Of a stretch of 64,000 bases of DNA, positions 19,721 to 25,860 are shown in pieces. Numbering within the stretch: the stretch's first letter is position 1; each line of letters begins with the position of its first letter. This DNA is from Acidobacteriota bacterium. GTDB lineage: Bacteria; Acidobacteriota; Thermoanaerobaculia; Multivoradales; Multivoraceae. A program made the translations under genes and the position numbers. Below the pieces are notes generated by a model. It was not told the origin of the DNA. It made no database searches and saw nothing but the letters and a program-made list of their open reading frames with translations. The stretch is from NCBI GenBank assembly GCA_029263415.1, contig JAJCXN010000005.1:124001-188000 (forward strand), written 5' to 3'.

Positions 19721-21010
19721 TCACAGCCTTTGGCGCGGCGGGACCAACGCGTTCGCGACAAACAGACCGGTGGCGATCGCGACCGCTATGAAGGCCATCG
19801 TCGTGACCAGCTCAACCCCGCCCACGGCGTCATTGACGCTGAACAGAGCTACTGCGCGAAACCCGAGGGAACCAGGCACCAGATGCATCATGGCTGGAAC
19901 ACGAAGCACCAGCGCCGGACGACGGCGAAGCCGTGCCCAGAAATTGGAAGTCAGGCCAGTGACTATTGCACCAGCGAACGCGGCAAAAAGCGGCGCCGAC
20001 TCTGGATCAGGCATCAAGGAGAGCGTCGTGCGTGCTGTTAGGAAAGTTGCCAAGCCGCACACGGCGATCGGAAGAAAGTGACGCGGCTCAGCTCGAAACA
20101 TGACCAGAAAGCTTAGTGACGTCACCAGTACCGCTCCGACCAAGACCTCAAGCGGCAGGTGTCTCGGTGCACCAGCCGCCGCCTGTTCGCCAAGAACGCC
20201 AGTGGCCAATGCCGACCCCAAGACTGCGCCGAACGCCAACAACAGAAACACCGATACGGCTCCAAACAATCGCGACGTACCAGAAACCACATTGCGCTGC
20301 GCGAGCTCGGTCACTGCCTGGGTGAAAGTCAGCCCGGGCACCAACACGATCAACCCAGCCAGAATCACCGTTGGCGCCGAGATATCGATCCATTGGCTCA
20401 AAAAGGGAACCGCACCAGCCAGCACGAAGGCAGCGAGCGGCTCAAACAGGTCACTGCCCCGTCTACCTTCACCGACGGCCAACGCCAGCAAACCGATCAG
20501 TAGGCCTGCTGCCCCCGCAGCAGCAACCTCGAGCCACTGAGCACCGAGGAAGCAAGCAAAGCCAGCTGACGATGTCGCAAACGCCAAGACGTGCAAGGCG
20601 GCGTGGTACCGGGCTGGTTGCTGGTCAATCTGGGCCACTCGAGCCGTCGCCTCGGGCACTTCGATTTCGCCTGCGATCGTCAAACGCGCTAGCTCGTCTA
20701 ACTGCGCCAACTTGCCAAGATCAACAGTGCCAGAGTTCTGCCGCTGCAGATGCGTCTTCTGATCATCCTCAATCTCAGCGGTACTCATCAGCGAGGTTGG
20801 TGTCGCGAGGAAACTAGCGCGCAGCCCCAACGACCGCGCGATCTCTTCAAGCGCAATCTCGAGTCGATGGACCGGTGCACCATACCGATGCAGCCCGCTG
20901 CCGATCGCCACTACGAACCTAAACGCGGCGTGCTCAGACGATGCCGGTCCAGATCGCGGCGCCGTGGATGAAACCGTGGATGAAGTGGTGGTTGAACTGG
21001 TGTGATTCAT
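19721..21010 (-). CDS. ThrE-type threonine/serine exporter family membrane protein
   Basis: A 429-residue integral membrane protein. ATG 21010 is preferred because it overlaps the ROK stop codon (ATGA); an upstream start would add 48 residues of antisense-like sequence. The N-terminal half matches the cytoplasmic/first membrane domain of ThrE (HRLEIALEEIARSLGL, GLTFTQAVTELAQRNVVSGTSRL) and is followed by a second group of hydrophobic helices, so both halves (DUF1212 plus ThrE-2-like) are fused in one chain. It would export small hydroxy-amino acids across the inner membrane by proton exchange. Coupling to a sugar kinase gene is unexplained. Confidence 0.85.
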   Translation of the reverse strand: MNHTSSTTTSSTVSSTAPRSGPASSEHAAFRFVVAIGSGLHRYGAPVHRLEIALEEIARSLGLRASFLATPTSLMSTAEIEDDQKTHLQRQNSGTVDLGKLAQLDELARLTIAGEIEVPEATARVAQIDQQPARYHAALHVLAFATSSAGFACFLGAQWLEVAAAGAAGLLIGLLALAVGEGRRGSDLFEPLAAFVLAGAVPFLSQWIDISAPTVILAGLIVLVPGLTFTQAVTELAQRNVVSGTSRLFGAVSVFLLLAFGAVLGSALATGVLGEQAAAGAPRHLPLEVLVGAVLVTSLSFLVMFRAEPRHFLPIAVCGLATFLTARTTLSLMPDPESAPLFAAFAGAIVTGLTSNFWARLRRRPALVLRVPAMMHLVPGSLGFRAVALFSVNDAVGGVELVTTMAFIAVAIATGLFVANALVPPRQRL

Positions 21011-22038
21011 GACTCGATGTTCTCGGTGTTCACAGTGGCAGTCCCGGCCAGGACCAGGCCTCCAAGGAGCCCCGCTCGATCTTCCAATGCTGATGTCGCG
21101 ATGGTCAAAGCGTCGAGCGGCACCATGTGCACACGCTCCCGAACGATGCGCCACATCGGAGACACCAATCGCTCCTCGAGCGCAGAAATCCCGCCGCCTA
21201 GAACGATGAAGTCAGGTGCAAGAATATGCATCAGGTTCGCCGCAAGGATGCCAAGTGCAGAGGCCGCACGATCAAGCAGCTCGACCAGTGCATGATCCCC
21301 GGCCCGTGCGGCGCGGGCTATCAGCTCAACGCCGAAGCCAGAGTCCGGGTCATCTCGCTCTTCGAGCAAGCGACTGAGATGGGGTGCTGCACCAAGGTCA
21401 CGCAGCTGCCTGGCGGCGCCCACTAGCGCCGCCCCGCCCGCCACCGTCTCGACGCAACCGCGGCCGCCGCACAAGCAGGGCTCGCCCTCAGGATCAATCA
21501 CCACATGACCGATTTCTCCGGCCGCGCCGAATCGCGCTGAACCACCAACGCCGGGGCCCGTAAGCAGCTCACCGTTGACCACGACACCACCACCAACCCC
21601 GGTGCCAAGCCCGATGTAGACCATGGTTGTGCACGATCTGCGCTGCGCATCCACCAATCCACCGAACGCGAACTCCCCGAGCGCCGCCACTCGCGCGTCG
21701 TTGCCAACCGCCACCGGCAGCCCGGTTCGGTTTGAGAGCTCGCCTGCGATCTCGAGACCTTGCCACTCAGGGGACAGGTTGGGAGCCTTCTCGACTCGCC
21801 CCTCAGCATCTAACAGGCCAGGAAAGGAAAAACCTGCGGCGGTTCCCTCAACGCCGAAACCGTCGATAGCACTGGCAACGAAGTCCAGGACCTGTCGCGG
21901 CTCAACCAGTTCGTGATCGCAACCATCGCCGTGCCGCCCGACCATTTGCGAACTGACTTTGTCGAGCCCACCCGAGATGGTGCCATGCCCCACGCGCACG
22001 CTGGAACCACCAAGATCAACACTGAACAGACGACTCAT
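21007..22038 (-). CDS. ROK-family sugar kinase (glucokinase-like)
   Basis: A 343-residue cytoplasmic kinase. The N-terminal phosphate loop is VDLGGSSVRVG and the second glycine loop is YIGLGTGVGGGVVVNG. The ROK zinc site is present as GH followed by CLCGGRGCVE. It most likely phosphorylates glucose or another hexose, since there is no DNA-binding domain as in NagC/XylR-type ROK regulators. ATG 22038 was chosen over the 14-residue longer frame because MSRLFSVDLGG is the normal ROK opening. The stop overlaps the ThrE-like start by 4 bp. Confidence 0.9.
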   Translation of the reverse strand: MSRLFSVDLGGSSVRVGHGTISGGLDKVSSQMVGRHGDGCDHELVEPRQVLDFVASAIDGFGVEGTAAGFSFPGLLDAEGRVEKAPNLSPEWQGLEIAGELSNRTGLPVAVGNDARVAALGEFAFGGLVDAQRRSCTTMVYIGLGTGVGGGVVVNGELLTGPGVGGSARFGAAGEIGHVVIDPEGEPCLCGGRGCVETVAGGAALVGAARQLRDLGAAPHLSRLLEERDDPDSGFGVELIARAARAGDHALVELLDRAASALGILAANLMHILAPDFIVLGGGISALEERLVSPMWRIVRERVHMVPLDALTIATSALEDRAGLLGGLVLAGTATVNTENIES

Positions 22039-22103
22039 CTTCACAAACCCCAATGACACCACAGTTCGGATGAACGGCACCTGCCGACTGAGGGGAAACC
22101 CTC

Positions 22104-22409
22104 TTAGGAGCTTGCTGCTGACAAAACGGCCGAATCTTCGCTCGCCGCCTCGTCCGGCGTCAGCGCTTCGATTCGGTCGACGGCGTGAACCGGAGCCCGC
22201 TCGCCCTTCATTAGGCCCTTGATCGCTCCTAGAACCAGGCGCTGTTTGCTAAGGGTGTTCTTGCCGACGAACTGCTCAGCGACCACTCGAATCTCGAAAT
22301 GGCCCCCCATCCCTTGAGCGCTGATCGAAGCTCCCGGGAGCGCCTCACCGAGCAAACGTTCGATGTGCTCGACGGTCTCCTGCGGTGGCCGATTTATTTG
22401 CAATGCCAT
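22104..22409 (-). CDS. BolA/IbaG family protein
   Basis: A 101-residue protein with the BolA fold signature GGHFEIRVVAEQFVGKNTLSKQRLV and RAPVHAVDRIEAL. BolA-type proteins bind CGFS monothiol glutaredoxins and [2Fe-2S] clusters. Here the gene lies 66 bp downstream of a CGFS glutaredoxin fusion on the same strand, which strongly suggests a functional pair in iron-sulfur cluster handling. The Thr-Pro-Asp-Glu-Ala C-terminal tail is extra to the core fold. Confidence 0.9.
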   Translation of the reverse strand: MALQINRPPQETVEHIERLLGEALPGASISAQGMGGHFEIRVVAEQFVGKNTLSKQRLVLGAIKGLMKGERAPVHAVDRIEALTPDEAASEDSAVLSAASS

Positions 22410-22475: not shown

Positions 22476-23483
22476 CTAGTAGCGTTTGATGTTCGAGTCG
22501 ATCTCGGTTGCCCAAGAATCGATCCCACCAGCGAGGTTGTACACGTCGGTAAAACCTAGCGCAGCAAAGTGTTGAGCTACCCGTTGCGACCGACCACCGT
22601 GGTGGCACTGAAACACGATGAGCTCGTCTTTGCCAGAGGCTTCCAGCGCCTCCTGGTTCTGATGCAACCACTCGGCTCCTTCAATCGAAGCGGTCTCGCG
22701 CTCGCCTTCAGTCCGCACGTCAACCAACCGATGCGGCGCACCCGCCTTGCGCAACTGGTCGAGTACCGCAACCGTCATCTGGGGAATCCCATCAACGACA
22801 TCGTGCTCAGGACCTCCAGCAGCACTCTCAGACTTAGTCCCTGCTGGATCTTGAGGAGCGTTGGGGTTGTCGATCATCAAACCAGAGCCCTCGGGTCCCG
22901 TGCGTACGTCAATGGACAGCCCGTTTGCCCGCGCCGCTGAGTCTGGATCCATCAGCACCTTGATGCCATTGGCCTCAATCACAACACTCTCGTGAGACAT
23001 CGGACCGAACGCCAGCGAGTGATGGAACCGAGCGTCGACACCCAGATGCACTTCACCGCCGTCGTATTGAACTTTGGCTTCCTCAAGCAACGTCACCGCG
23101 GCGTCGCTGATGTTCAGCACCACGCCATCCGTCTCGGGGCGTTCTTGGCCTAGGGCCTGATGCAGCTCACCGTTCGCGTACATCTCGCGCACAATGTCGC
23201 AACCGCCCTGGAACTCGCCGCCAACATAGAGCTGAGGGATCGTTGGCCAATCGGAGAACTCCTTGATCCCATTGCGAATTTCTTCGTCCTGAAGGACGTC
23301 TTGCGTTCGATAGTCCGGAAGGACTCGATCCAGAATCTGCACCACTTGCGCCGAGAAACCGCACTGTGGAGCTCCTCGATCGCCCTTCATGAACAGCACC
23401 ACTGGTGCTGAACCCACCAGCGAGGCAAGGCGTTCGTTCAGCTCTGTAGAGAGACCAGAATCTTCTGTTGGGGTGTCAATCAT
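22476..23483 (-). CDS. CGFS glutaredoxin / cysteine-less A-type-carrier-like / rhodanese fusion protein
   Basis: A 335-residue cytoplasmic protein in three parts. Residues 12-115 are a Grx4/GrxD monothiol glutaredoxin with the CGFS site at Cys 41 and WPTIPQLYVGGEFQGGCDI. Residues 120-210 align by eye with HesB/IscA A-type carriers (LNISDAAVTLL, GIKVLMDPDSA, GSGLMIDNPNAP), but all three cluster-binding cysteines are absent. Residues 235-335 are a rhodanese domain with Cys 293 in QCHHGGRS. The gene precedes bolA. The combination suggests sulfur or Fe-S transfer, with the middle segment now a scaffold; that role is inferred. Start ATG 23483. Confidence 0.85.
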   Translation of the reverse strand: MIDTPTEDSGLSTELNERLASLVGSAPVVLFMKGDRGAPQCGFSAQVVQILDRVLPDYRTQDVLQDEEIRNGIKEFSDWPTIPQLYVGGEFQGGCDIVREMYANGELHQALGQERPETDGVVLNISDAAVTLLEEAKVQYDGGEVHLGVDARFHHSLAFGPMSHESVVIEANGIKVLMDPDSAARANGLSIDVRTGPEGSGLMIDNPNAPQDPAGTKSESAAGGPEHDVVDGIPQMTVAVLDQLRKAGAPHRLVDVRTEGERETASIEGAEWLHQNQEALEASGKDELIVFQCHHGGRSQRVAQHFAALGFTDVYNLAGGIDSWATEIDSNIKRY

Positions 23484-23782
23484 CTATGCTTACCGATTCT
23501 TCCCGCCAATGGATTGGCGAACGACCATATGTGCAGCTGCTGCTCATTCGAACGCAGCCCGCTAAGTGGCCCTAAGTCTACAACCGGAACGTGGTCTCGA
23601 TGTGCTTTAGGGCCGAAAGCAACCCTTCCCCTCCAGCTCGGTTCACTCTGAGGCTCAATCAGAGCACGCGTTGACACACCTTCGGCCAAATCGGGGAGCA
23701 CCCCCTCGAAGTGCGCAAGGGCCTCGAATCGCACTCCACTGCCCTTGCTTCGAATTCATCACCGGACCAACAGGACAACACA

Positions 23783-24262
23783 ATGAACCTACGCAGAGGC
23801 AGCAGTGCGAGACGCCTCATCATAATCGCGATCCTCCTGGGGATTTTCGCCGTCCGCTGGATGGATCGAGACGAGAACTCGCCGTCCCAAGCGGAAAGCG
23901 CGGGAAGCAGTGTATTGGCGGGCTCAAATCCGATCTCAGCTGCCTTCGAGGAGCAAAGGTCCGGGGTTTGGCTCGAAGGCTCAGGCGTGATCGATCGCCT
24001 ACTGCAAGATGATCTGGAGGGCGATCGCCATCAACGCTTTATCGTCCGAGTGAGCCGAGATCGCACCGTATTGATCAGCCATAACATCGACCTCGCTGCA
24101 CGGGTGCAGGTGGACCGAGGCGATGAGATAGCCTTCCGAGGACGTTACGAATGGAATGACCTTGGCGGTGTTGTTCACTGGACGCACCATGATCCGCAAG
24201 CTGGACATAGCGATATGGCCAGGGGCGGTTGGCTCAGGGCCAACGGGAAGCTGGTTCGGTAG
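23783..24262 (+). CDS. DUF3465 family protein with N-terminal membrane anchor
   Basis: A 159-residue protein from ATG 23783, which has AGGA 8-9 bp upstream. A hydrophobic stretch (about 12-25) anchors or exports it. The remainder matches DUF3465: EGDRHQRFIVRV, VLISHNIDLAARV, FRGRYEWNDLGGVVHWTHHDP and GGWLRANGK. DUF3465 is OB-fold-like and its function is unknown; the conserved WTHHDP and HQRF suggest a metal or nucleic-acid site, unproven. The PilZ-like gene begins 84 bp later on the same strand. Confidence 0.8.
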   Translation: MNLRRGSSARRLIIIAILLGIFAVRWMDRDENSPSQAESAGSSVLAGSNPISAAFEEQRSGVWLEGSGVIDRLLQDDLEGDRHQRFIVRVSRDRTVLISHNIDLAARVQVDRGDEIAFRGRYEWNDLGGVVHWTHHDPQAGHSDMARGGWLRANGKLVR

Positions 24263-24345
24263 TCGGCCCGCGACGAGTCAATCTGAGACAGCAGAAGGCG
24301 AACGCGGAACTTCATCGGTTCCGGACTTCTTGGGGAAGTGGACCT

Positions 24346-25233
24346 GTGGTAGAGAAGAGATCGTTTGGACGCAAACCCGCCCGACTCAAGGTGAGGTTTT
24401 GGCGAGCAGGATCACCCGACCGCGTTTTCACCGGCTACACAACGAATATCTCGCGCAGCGGCTGTTTTATTCAGACCGAGCACCCCATCGGTACTGCAGG
24501 CAGGTTGCAGCTTGAACTCTCGAGCGACGACCTCGGCTTCGTTTGCGAAGGCGTGGTTGCCCGTTCGATCAAGGCCCCGTACGAGCTGCGCCAGGTGAAG
24601 CCCAGCGGCATGGGCGTCCGCTTCTTGACGATCGAAGAACTCGTGCGCGCAGTCGTACCGGGGAACCTAGACGCTCACGACTCAGCAAACAAAGCGCTCA
24701 AGGAACGCGAGCCATCCGATGACCAAGGCCCAGACTCGCACCCAGCCCCGAAACCCGAAACGCCCGTCGTCAGCCCACGAATCACTGACTTCGAAGCGGC
24801 CTCGCCCACGGCGATGCGTGCCGCCAGCAGACATCCGGCAGCACGACCTCTCCCGCCCACCGAACAACAGCAGGCACAGTCCGAACCGAAAACCGCGGCT
24901 GCCAAGTCGGATCAACCGAAACCAGACCACGCCTTTCGCATCGCACCTCCCACCATCGAACGGCTCGCCGCGTTGTACCATGCCGAGCTACAGAAAGACC
25001 GCCTGTTCATACCATCGAGCAAGGCGAGCAGAGTGGGAGCCACGGTGCGGGTCGAACTGGTGTTACCCACGACCGGAGGGACGGCCGCTTCAAAGAGCGT
25101 CGAGCTCCACGGTGTCGTCCGGAAGCAATGGAGCAAAGGCGACCGTACGCCTAACATCGAAGGCCTTGGCATCAAACTGCTTAACGCAACCAGCGCAAAG
25201 AAGACAATCGGCACGCTCATTGCGAACGCGTAG
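24346..25233 (+). CDS. PilZ domain protein with a second PilZ-like C-terminal domain
   Basis: A 295-residue protein. GTG 24346 is chosen because ggggaag lies 7 bp upstream. The N-terminal PilZ domain has RKPAR (residues 9-13) and NISRSGCF, the two c-di-GMP contact motifs, plus PSGMGVRFL. A Pro/Gln/Ala-rich linker of about 90 residues follows. The last 90 residues (LYHAELQKDRLFIPSS, VGATVRVELVLP, GLGIKLL) look like a second, degenerate PilZ-like barrel without the arginine motif. Probably a c-di-GMP effector. The ECF sigma gene starts 21 bp downstream, so the two may be one operon. Confidence 0.8.
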   Translation: MVEKRSFGRKPARLKVRFWRAGSPDRVFTGYTTNISRSGCFIQTEHPIGTAGRLQLELSSDDLGFVCEGVVARSIKAPYELRQVKPSGMGVRFLTIEELVRAVVPGNLDAHDSANKALKEREPSDDQGPDSHPAPKPETPVVSPRITDFEAASPTAMRAASRHPAARPLPPTEQQQAQSEPKTAAAKSDQPKPDHAFRIAPPTIERLAALYHAELQKDRLFIPSSKASRVGATVRVELVLPTTGGTAASKSVELHGVVRKQWSKGDRTPNIEGLGIKLLNATSAKKTIGTLIANA

Positions 25234-25254: not shown

Positions 25255-25860
25255 ATGACTCCATCTCGACAGTCCCCAAACCCAAGGCCCGAACCTAAGG
25301 CCATCGCCGACCTGCTCGAGCGCATGCGCAACGGCGACAAATACGCTCTAGACCAGCTGCTTCCTCTGGTCTATCGCGAACTTGCCAGCATCGCGCATGG
25401 TCAGCGCCTACGGATCGGCGGAACCGGCGTCAACACAACTGCATTGGTTCATGAGGCGTACCTCAAGATCTCCGCGAGCAAACCGCGGGCGTTCGAAGGC
25501 CGCGGACACTTCTTTGCCGTCGCTGCCACAGCCATGCGTCAACTTTTGATCGATGAAGCCAAGAAGCACTCAGCGCAAAAGCGTGGCGGTGGTGTGCGCC
25601 CAATTTCACTGGAAGACGTTGAAATCGGCGTCGACACTCAAGCCGAGAGCTTGCTCCAACTCGACCGAGCCCTAGAAGCACTTCATACCGTCGATCCTAG
25701 ACTGCTCAGGGTCGTCGAGTGCCGCTTCTTCGGAGGACTGACCGAGCAAGAGACAGCCGAGGCGCTTGGCATCACCGATCGAACGGTGCGCCGAGACTGG
25801 GTCAAGGCTCGCGCCTGGCTAGCAGTGCACATGGGAGCCGAAGAAGCCGACGACAGTTAG
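25255..25860 (+). CDS. ECF RNA polymerase sigma factor (Acidobacteriota/Planctomycetes-type, TIGR02999-like)
   Basis: A 201-residue sigma-70 family protein. Region 2 includes LLPLVYRELASIAHGQRLR and ALVHEAYLKI, then GRGHFFAVAATAMRQLLIDEAKK. Region 4 is TEQETAEALGITDRTVRRDWVKARAWL. This arrangement is typical of the ECF group found in Acidobacteriota and Planctomycetes, often controlled by a TPR-linked kinase rather than an anti-sigma factor. No anti-sigma gene is adjacent; the PilZ-like gene lies immediately upstream. It would direct polymerase to an unknown regulon. Confidence 0.9.
   Translation: MTPSRQSPNPRPEPKAIADLLERMRNGDKYALDQLLPLVYRELASIAHGQRLRIGGTGVNTTALVHEAYLKISASKPRAFEGRGHFFAVAATAMRQLLIDEAKKHSAQKRGGGVRPISLEDVEIGVDTQAESLLQLDRALEALHTVDPRLLRVVECRFFGGLTEQETAEALGITDRTVRRDWVKARAWLAVHMGAEEADDS

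Follow-up and report, generated by a model that had tools for sequence, protein, structure and literature searches.

The closest described systems belong to Fe-S cluster trafficking. The heterodimer of BolA and the CGFS glutaredoxin (Grx) GrxD holds a cluster (PMC8593673), and Escherichia coli GrxD donates its cluster to ErpA, which it loads well, while SufA is loaded poorly (PMC11327457). NfuA of the E. coli type joins a C-terminal Nfu domain carrying a CxxC motif to a degenerate A-type carrier (ATC) domain that contacts clients (PMC11327457; PMC8593673) and targets NfuA to apo-proteins (PMC8593673). In addition, Alves et al. 2009 (PMC2679010) described CGFS "frataxin-rhodanese-GRX" proteins restricted to bacteria, for which a link to Fe-S clusters was proposed, and did not find a Grx fused to rhodanese alone.

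We analyzed a gene located in a 64,000-nucleotide stretch of an Acidobacteriota genome (the window), which encodes a CGFS Grx, a degenerate ATC domain and a rhodanese in a single chain (Table 1). The preliminary description had placed the gene correctly at 22476-23483, but its strand had to be changed: a 335-residue open reading frame fills exactly these coordinates on the minus strand, and on the plus strand this region is interrupted by stop codons. The two sites that had been described as intact, Cys41 of the CGFS motif and Cys293 of the rhodanese, are both present, and the bolA gene announced next to the fusion was confirmed by its profile match.

Table 1. Features of the fusion gene and of its surroundings, with positions in the window
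Feature	Positions	Strand	Basis or remark
Whole gene: CGFS glutaredoxin, degenerate A-type domain, rhodanese	22476..23483	-	335 aa
Grx4-type (CGFS) glutaredoxin domain, residues 13-112	23148..23447	-	TIGR00365, PF00462, fold
CGFS cysteine Cys41	23361..23363	-	kept in 117/117 distinct proteins
Degenerate (cysteine-less) ATC domain, residues 121-210	22854..23123	-	weak PF01521, profile matches, modelled fold
Asp150, at the first cluster-cysteine position of A-type carriers	23034..23036	-	alignment
Fusion-specific motif A183-x-R185-A186	22926..22937	-	alignment of 117 proteins
Linker, residues 211-232	22788..22853	-	model confidence low at 217-224
Rhodanese domain, residues 233-335	22479..22787	-	PF00581, E 3.7e-14
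Rhodanese active-site cysteine Cys293	22605..22607	-	kept in 89/89 three-domain proteins
bolA, same strand, starting 66 nt downstream of the fusion	22104..22409	-	PF01722, E 1.1e-9
ROK family protein	21007-22080	-	ordinary neighbour
ThrE-type exporter	19721-21154	-	ordinary neighbour
DUF3465	23711-24262	+	ordinary neighbour
PilZ domain	24229-25233	+	ordinary neighbour
ECF sigma factor	25255-25860	+	ordinary neighbour

Both outer domains of the window protein were called by Pfam (Glutaredoxin at residues 28-91, E 5.8e-20; Rhodanese at residues 239-326), and its full-length model had a pLDDT of 91.7 and a pTM of 0.68. The Grx part scored 130.5 bits against the NCBIfam model of the Grx4 family (TIGR00365; cut-off, 117.1), and the modelled fold of this domain matched AtGRXcp (3ipz) and E. 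coli Grx4 (2wci). It is probably an iron-sulfur cluster carrier. The fusion resembles Grx4/GrxD in having a CGFS domain above the curated cut-off and bolA as a neighbour but, unlike the single-domain GrxD, it harbors two further domains. No promoter-like and no terminator-like site was found between 21900 and 23900 (shuffled sequences gave 0.3 and 1.7, respectively).

The middle segment had been compared by eye with IscA/HesB proteins. In the window protein, PF01521 (Fe-S_biosyn) matched residues 125-209 with 21.0 bits; a match was thus obtained, but it stayed below the curated cut-off of 26.3. Scanned alone, the segment reached 25.5 bits (E 1.7e-5). The same cut-off was passed by the fusions of some relatives and missed by those of others, and 33 of 40 members, i.e., the window protein and 39 relatives, matched PF01521 at E <= 0.1. 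A search profile built from these 40 sequences found solved A-type chains at E values from 6.8e-9 to 1.1e-5 (HI1723, 6.8e-9; AQ_1857, 5.9e-7; IscA 1x0g, 1.1e-6; YfhF/IscA 1r94, 1.1e-5). Modelled alone (pLDDT 84.5), the ATC domain matched IscA 1r94_A best (Z 12.7, rmsd 2.2 over 91 residues; Foldseek E 2.8e-6), followed by DsrR 2k4z (Z 12.5, rmsd 3.3, 100 residues), SufA 2d2a_B (Z 11.6, rmsd 3.0, 99 residues) and YneR/PdhI 9a4q_B (Z 8.9, rmsd 3.0, 84 residues). Since the profile finds solved A-type chains and the fold agrees, the A-type match goes beyond what chance would give. Because the model matches IscA, DsrR, SufA and YneR/PdhI, the middle domain is, by its modelled fold, an A-type domain, and the kinship suggested by eye holds at the level of both profile and predicted structure. 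We also considered frataxin: its profile matched none of the 40 members at E <= 0.1, the top fold matches were A-type proteins, and no frataxin fold was present among the structure matches listed. Another candidate, 6mxv as a solved ATC-rhodanese relative, was rejected since both matched stretches are rhodanese.

The fusion's ATC domain shares its fold and a PF01521-like sequence with ErpA, IscA and SufA but, unlike them, has lost all three ligand cysteines. To place these positions, we collected 123 fusion proteins, of which 117 were distinct after removal of six duplicates (89 three-domain and 28 Grx-ATC proteins), and aligned them with genuine A-type carriers taken one per genome from 29 genomes that carry a fusion (L163, whose parse was faulty, was left out of this set, and L026, with its broken frame, out of all alignments and of the dN/dS analysis). 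While all three cysteines were present in 29/29 carriers, the window protein has none at the ligand columns, as previously claimed. The first ligand column, a cysteine in each of the 29 carriers, is occupied by Asp in 66 of the 89 three-domain fusions and by Asp150 in the window, not by the histidine that had been proposed. Histidine as a replacement ligand was therefore rejected; at the positions of window residues His154 and His155, His was found in only 1 and 36 of the 89. At the second ligand column, 82 of the 89 three-domain fusions have a gap, and at the third, 87 do. Counting cysteines at the columns where the window has a residue, no column of the ATC region held more than 3 among the 117 proteins. 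The ATC domain and linker together contain no cysteine in 105 proteins, one in 11 and two in one. Among the 117, no fusion with intact ATC cysteines, which would be an intermediate, was found. The middle domain cannot act as a cluster carrier of the usual type.

Residues 183, 185 and 186 are Ala in 115, Arg or Lys in 116 and Ala in 112 of the 117 fusions, respectively, whereas genuine carriers have Tyr (26/29) and Leu (27/29) at columns 185 and 186. In the Grx part, the CGFS cysteine is present in all 117 proteins, which were picked for the CGFS motif or profile, and W79, T81 and P83 are invariant. The ATC domain has the lowest mean pairwise identity of the three domains (0.395, compared to 0.589 for Grx and 0.535 for rhodanese), and in the proteins of g2, a genus of the window's family, most of the NPN end is also gone. 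Nevertheless, among 19 sequences of g2, the median dN/dS was 0.126 for both the Grx and the ATC parts, indicating purifying selection on both (pairs with dS between 0.05 and 1.5 only: 168 of 171 for Grx, with values up to 0.371, and 166 of 171 for ATC, up to 0.273). From these alignments, we read the A-x-R-A pattern as a putative new constraint rather than as decay.

We then asked whether the fusion is confined to one assembly, and found that it is widespread. In the window's family, the Grx-ATC part was present in 22 of 23 sampled genomes, including L026, where it is broken across frames; one genome of genus g2 (G019) had no Grx match. Genera g3 and g4 carry the rhodanese in the same chain, and in g2 it is absent from the 20 loci read and from the 19 distinct proteins kept. 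Throughout the window's phylum, 46 of 396 genomes matched at E <= 1e-20; 15 of them belong to the family and 31 lie outside, the latter aligning only up to query residue 133 of 213, which is the Grx part. Fifteen of these 31 were read, and two, L044 and L045, from another family of the phylum, are two-domain proteins made of a CGFS Grx and a rhodanese without ATC domain, contrary to the statement of PMC2679010 that this combination was not found.

In a scan of genome contigs, 39 three-domain proteins were present among the best 80 of 182 loci (the start of L096 is cut), mostly from Myxococcales/Deltaproteobacteria and Gammaproteobacteria and two from the window's family. Of 187 genomes from the phylum that includes a Kofleriaceae genome (L072), 48 matched essentially the whole profile; the same sample held one more match cut at a contig end, 8 Grx-ATC proteins and one ATC-rhodanese protein, and in 4 more genomes the Grx by itself gave E <= 1e-50. 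Of 121 genomes from the order to which a Lysobacterales genome (L095) belongs, 108 had a full or nearly full match and one had Grx-ATC, compared to 5/274 full matches in the class, the centre genome included. The fusion is thus the usual Grx4 of the Lysobacterales order and is rare in the class. Separately, we observed that an ATC-rhodanese protein, L257, which lacks a glutaredoxin, has Gly at the position of the rhodanese cysteine.

Gene neighbours were surveyed in 98 distinct contexts, after six duplicate and six non-fusion loci had been set aside. Among these, bolA lies directly downstream in the three loci of the window's family with their own or named DNA; a separate reading of 23 loci of the family, these three included, showed a BolA motif directly downstream in 23/23. 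In the Kofleriaceae-phylum sample, bolA adjoins 17 of the 26 three-domain loci and 5 of the 8 with two domains, and among the other named loci it is adjacent in 3 of 22. It adjoined none of the 20 loci of the Lysobacterales-order sample, none of the 4 of the class sample and none of the 15 named loci of the gammaproteobacterial type. In 10 of these last 15, a gene for a Cys-bearing A-type carrier is located directly upstream (within 150 nt); no such gene stood beside the fusion in any of the other groups, among them the order (0/20) and class (0/4) samples, the other named loci (0/22) and the Kofleriaceae-phylum loci (0/26 and 0/8). In five loci (L063, L066, L068, L070 and L097), two genuine A-type carrier genes were seen in a row upstream, about 1 kb apart. 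Given the CGFS motif of the 117 proteins and the bolA gene adjoining the fusion at the loci of the window's family and at 17 of the 26 three-domain Kofleriaceae-phylum loci, a link to Fe-S trafficking is reasonable.

The genomes carrying the fusion have further Fe-S genes. All 33 genomes scanned (of 39 loci) gave a strong PF01521 match outside the fusion; 30 such loci were opened, and all three cysteines were present in 29, the thirtieth not being parsed. The window's genome encodes an ErpA-like A-type carrier that retains all its cysteines, an NfuA-like protein with an A-type domain devoid of the usual ones, two SUFBD-family matches for ordinary cluster assembly and, with GCS2 and GSH-S_ATP matches, the GshA and GshB families of glutathione synthesis.

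By analogy, the closest functional parallel of the middle domain would be the docking domain of NfuA. Like E. coli-type NfuA, the fusion joins what we infer to be an Fe-S carrier domain to a ligand-less A-type domain. Unlike in NfuA, this carrier domain is an N-terminal CGFS glutaredoxin and not a C-terminal Nfu domain; the Nfu domain and its CxxC motif are missing from the window protein, which has a rhodanese in this place. The two plans were found together in one protein of 413-425 residues (L269 and L272, which are the same, from the genome of L085): its four-domain frame (1-1239 in L269) contains a CGFS Grx, an ATC domain with SARRAQG, an NfuA-type ATC domain and Nfu. Pfam called Glutaredoxin, a single Fe-S_biosyn stretch (223-319) and NifU in this chain and did not call the first ATC domain. 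Among 193 genomes of that phylum, we also found, in a second genome, the chain with its CGFS motif lost (L274) and, in a third, an ATC-ATC-Nfu protein without Grx (L273). A sister-group relation between the ATC domains of the fusion and of NfuA was seen, but it is weak (SH-aLRT 83, few columns) and was not retained; one of the five NfuA rows, on a long branch, falls elsewhere in the tree.

We thus give an even chance to the hypothesis, built on the analogy with NfuA, that the fusion is an Fe-S trafficking protein in which the ATC domain serves as a docking module steering the cluster of the Grx. We take it as a carrier with a built-in docking domain because the A-type domain of NfuA targets that protein to apo-proteins (PMC8593673). 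The CGFS glutaredoxin would hold a [2Fe-2S] cluster with glutathione, either in a homodimer or in a pair with the neighbouring BolA. The ligand-less A-type domain would dock it to Cys-bearing A-type carriers (ErpA-like) or to their clients, and the cluster would then be handed over to the carrier or client, this direction of transfer being presumed. The rhodanese would be an optional addition, possibly acting there as a source or a sink of sulfane sulfur. The hypothesis is favoured by the retained CGFS site, the IscA-like fold without ligands, the A-x-R-A motif, the purifying selection, the persistence of the ATC domain where the rhodanese is missing, the Cys-bearing carriers of the same genomes, the glutathione synthesis families, the adjoining bolA or carrier genes, the published parallels and the Grx-ATC-NfuA chain. 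Against it speak the low conservation of the ATC domain, the PF01521 score under the cut-off, the groups of loci in which bolA or a carrier gene does not adjoin the fusion, the weak kinship with the NfuA domain and the rarity of the fusion in the class (5/274). A narrower proposal, which we consider possible but doubtful, is that the cysteine-less ATC domain pairs through its A-x-R-A face with a Cys-bearing A-type carrier in an asymmetric heterodimer, and that the tethered Grx passes its cluster directly to this carrier, a cis-acting docking that would have evolved in parallel to NfuA.

A first alternative gives the rhodanese a central role: its persulfide would supply sulfide to build or repair the Grx cluster, so that sulfur supply would be coupled to delivery. 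A coupling of this kind had been put forward in the preliminary description, and the invariant rhodanese cysteine of the 89 three-domain proteins as well as the Grx-rhodanese proteins without ATC domain (L044 and L045) speak for it. However, in a tree of the Grx and ATC columns with 88 rows, the rhodanese is absent from 14, which requires 8 changes, and it is missing from the 19 distinct g2 proteins. At nine two-domain loci, no rhodanese motif was found within 450 nt downstream. Furthermore, the window's genome has its two SUFBD-family genes for ordinary cluster assembly. Because the rhodanese comes and goes while the cysteine-less ATC domain stays, the coupling is unsupported, and we regard it as unlikely.

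The 88 rows are a subset of the 96 chosen for a broader tree, which included 5 of 19 g2 and 6 of 19 order-sample sequences (L229-L247) and left out the near copies L082 and L083. In the broader tree, the window protein groups with its family and three Kofleriaceae-phylum sequences in a starred set of 11, and 24 rows of the gammaproteobacterial type form another starred set. As both are quick trees rooted at the midpoint, they do not tell gain of the rhodanese from its loss; loss is the likely direction, with the root set in this way rather than inferred.

Similarly unlikely is a persulfide enzyme in which sulfane sulfur would move from the rhodanese to the CGFS cysteine and on to glutathione, the Fe-S link being secondary. 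Natural sulfurtransferase-Grx fusions have been noted in some prokaryotes, and transpersulfidation via a Grx cysteine has been proposed for sulfurtransferase-Grx pairs (PMC11763069). Glutathione synthesis families are also present in the window's genome. However, CGFS glutaredoxins are generally poor oxidoreductases, Fe-S trafficking is indicated both by the A-type domain and by the bolA genes next to the fusion in several lineages, and the rhodanese is absent from many tree rows.

Still less likely is a role outside cluster transfer, in which the degenerate A-type domain would bind some other enzyme and regulate or inhibit it; this would be suggested by its similarity to DsrR, the second fold match, and to PdhI/YneR. 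DsrR is reportedly IscA-like and lacking Fe-S binding, as the title of its study has it. PdhI inhibits the E1 component of pyruvate dehydrogenase (PMC10090944). Both share the fold of the ATC domain, and no carrier role is reported for them, but unlike the ATC domain they are stand-alone proteins and not fused to a glutaredoxin. In contrast, the ATC domain is fused to an intact CGFS glutaredoxin in the 117 proteins, a set selected by that motif or profile, and additionally to NfuA in L269; one Grx-less protein was seen (L257). Finally, a mere structural or dimerisation spacer left over from an ancestral carrier could explain the conservation of the ATC domain, which is lower than that of the other two, and the loss of most of its NPN end in g2, but it is very unlikely in view of the nearly invariant A-x-R-A motif, the low dN/dS and the retention of the domain where the rhodanese is absent.

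The fusion invites comparison with the proteins described in 2009. Like "frataxin-rhodanese-GRX", it consists of a CGFS Grx, a rhodanese and a third domain; unlike in that description, where the third domain is called frataxin, it has an IscA fold here and 0/40 frataxin matches. Compared by description, the two probably represent one set of proteins (PMC2679010). Besides this paper and a general remark in PMC11763069, no other study of the architecture was found in the literature searched, as far as the accessible texts go, and neither "fusion" nor "fused" was found in the accessible part of PMC7144353. If the proteins are the same, the architecture was known, and the novelty would lie in the A-type identity of the domain, its loss of ligands and its A-x-R-A motif, and also in the parallel with NfuA and the distribution. 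The identity of the domain called frataxin in 2009 may thus be corrected. More generally, a large natural family in which the Grx carries its own A-type-like domain, extended in one genome by NfuA, would offer a single-chain system in which the recipient choice of CGFS glutaredoxins could be probed through the deletion or alteration of one domain.
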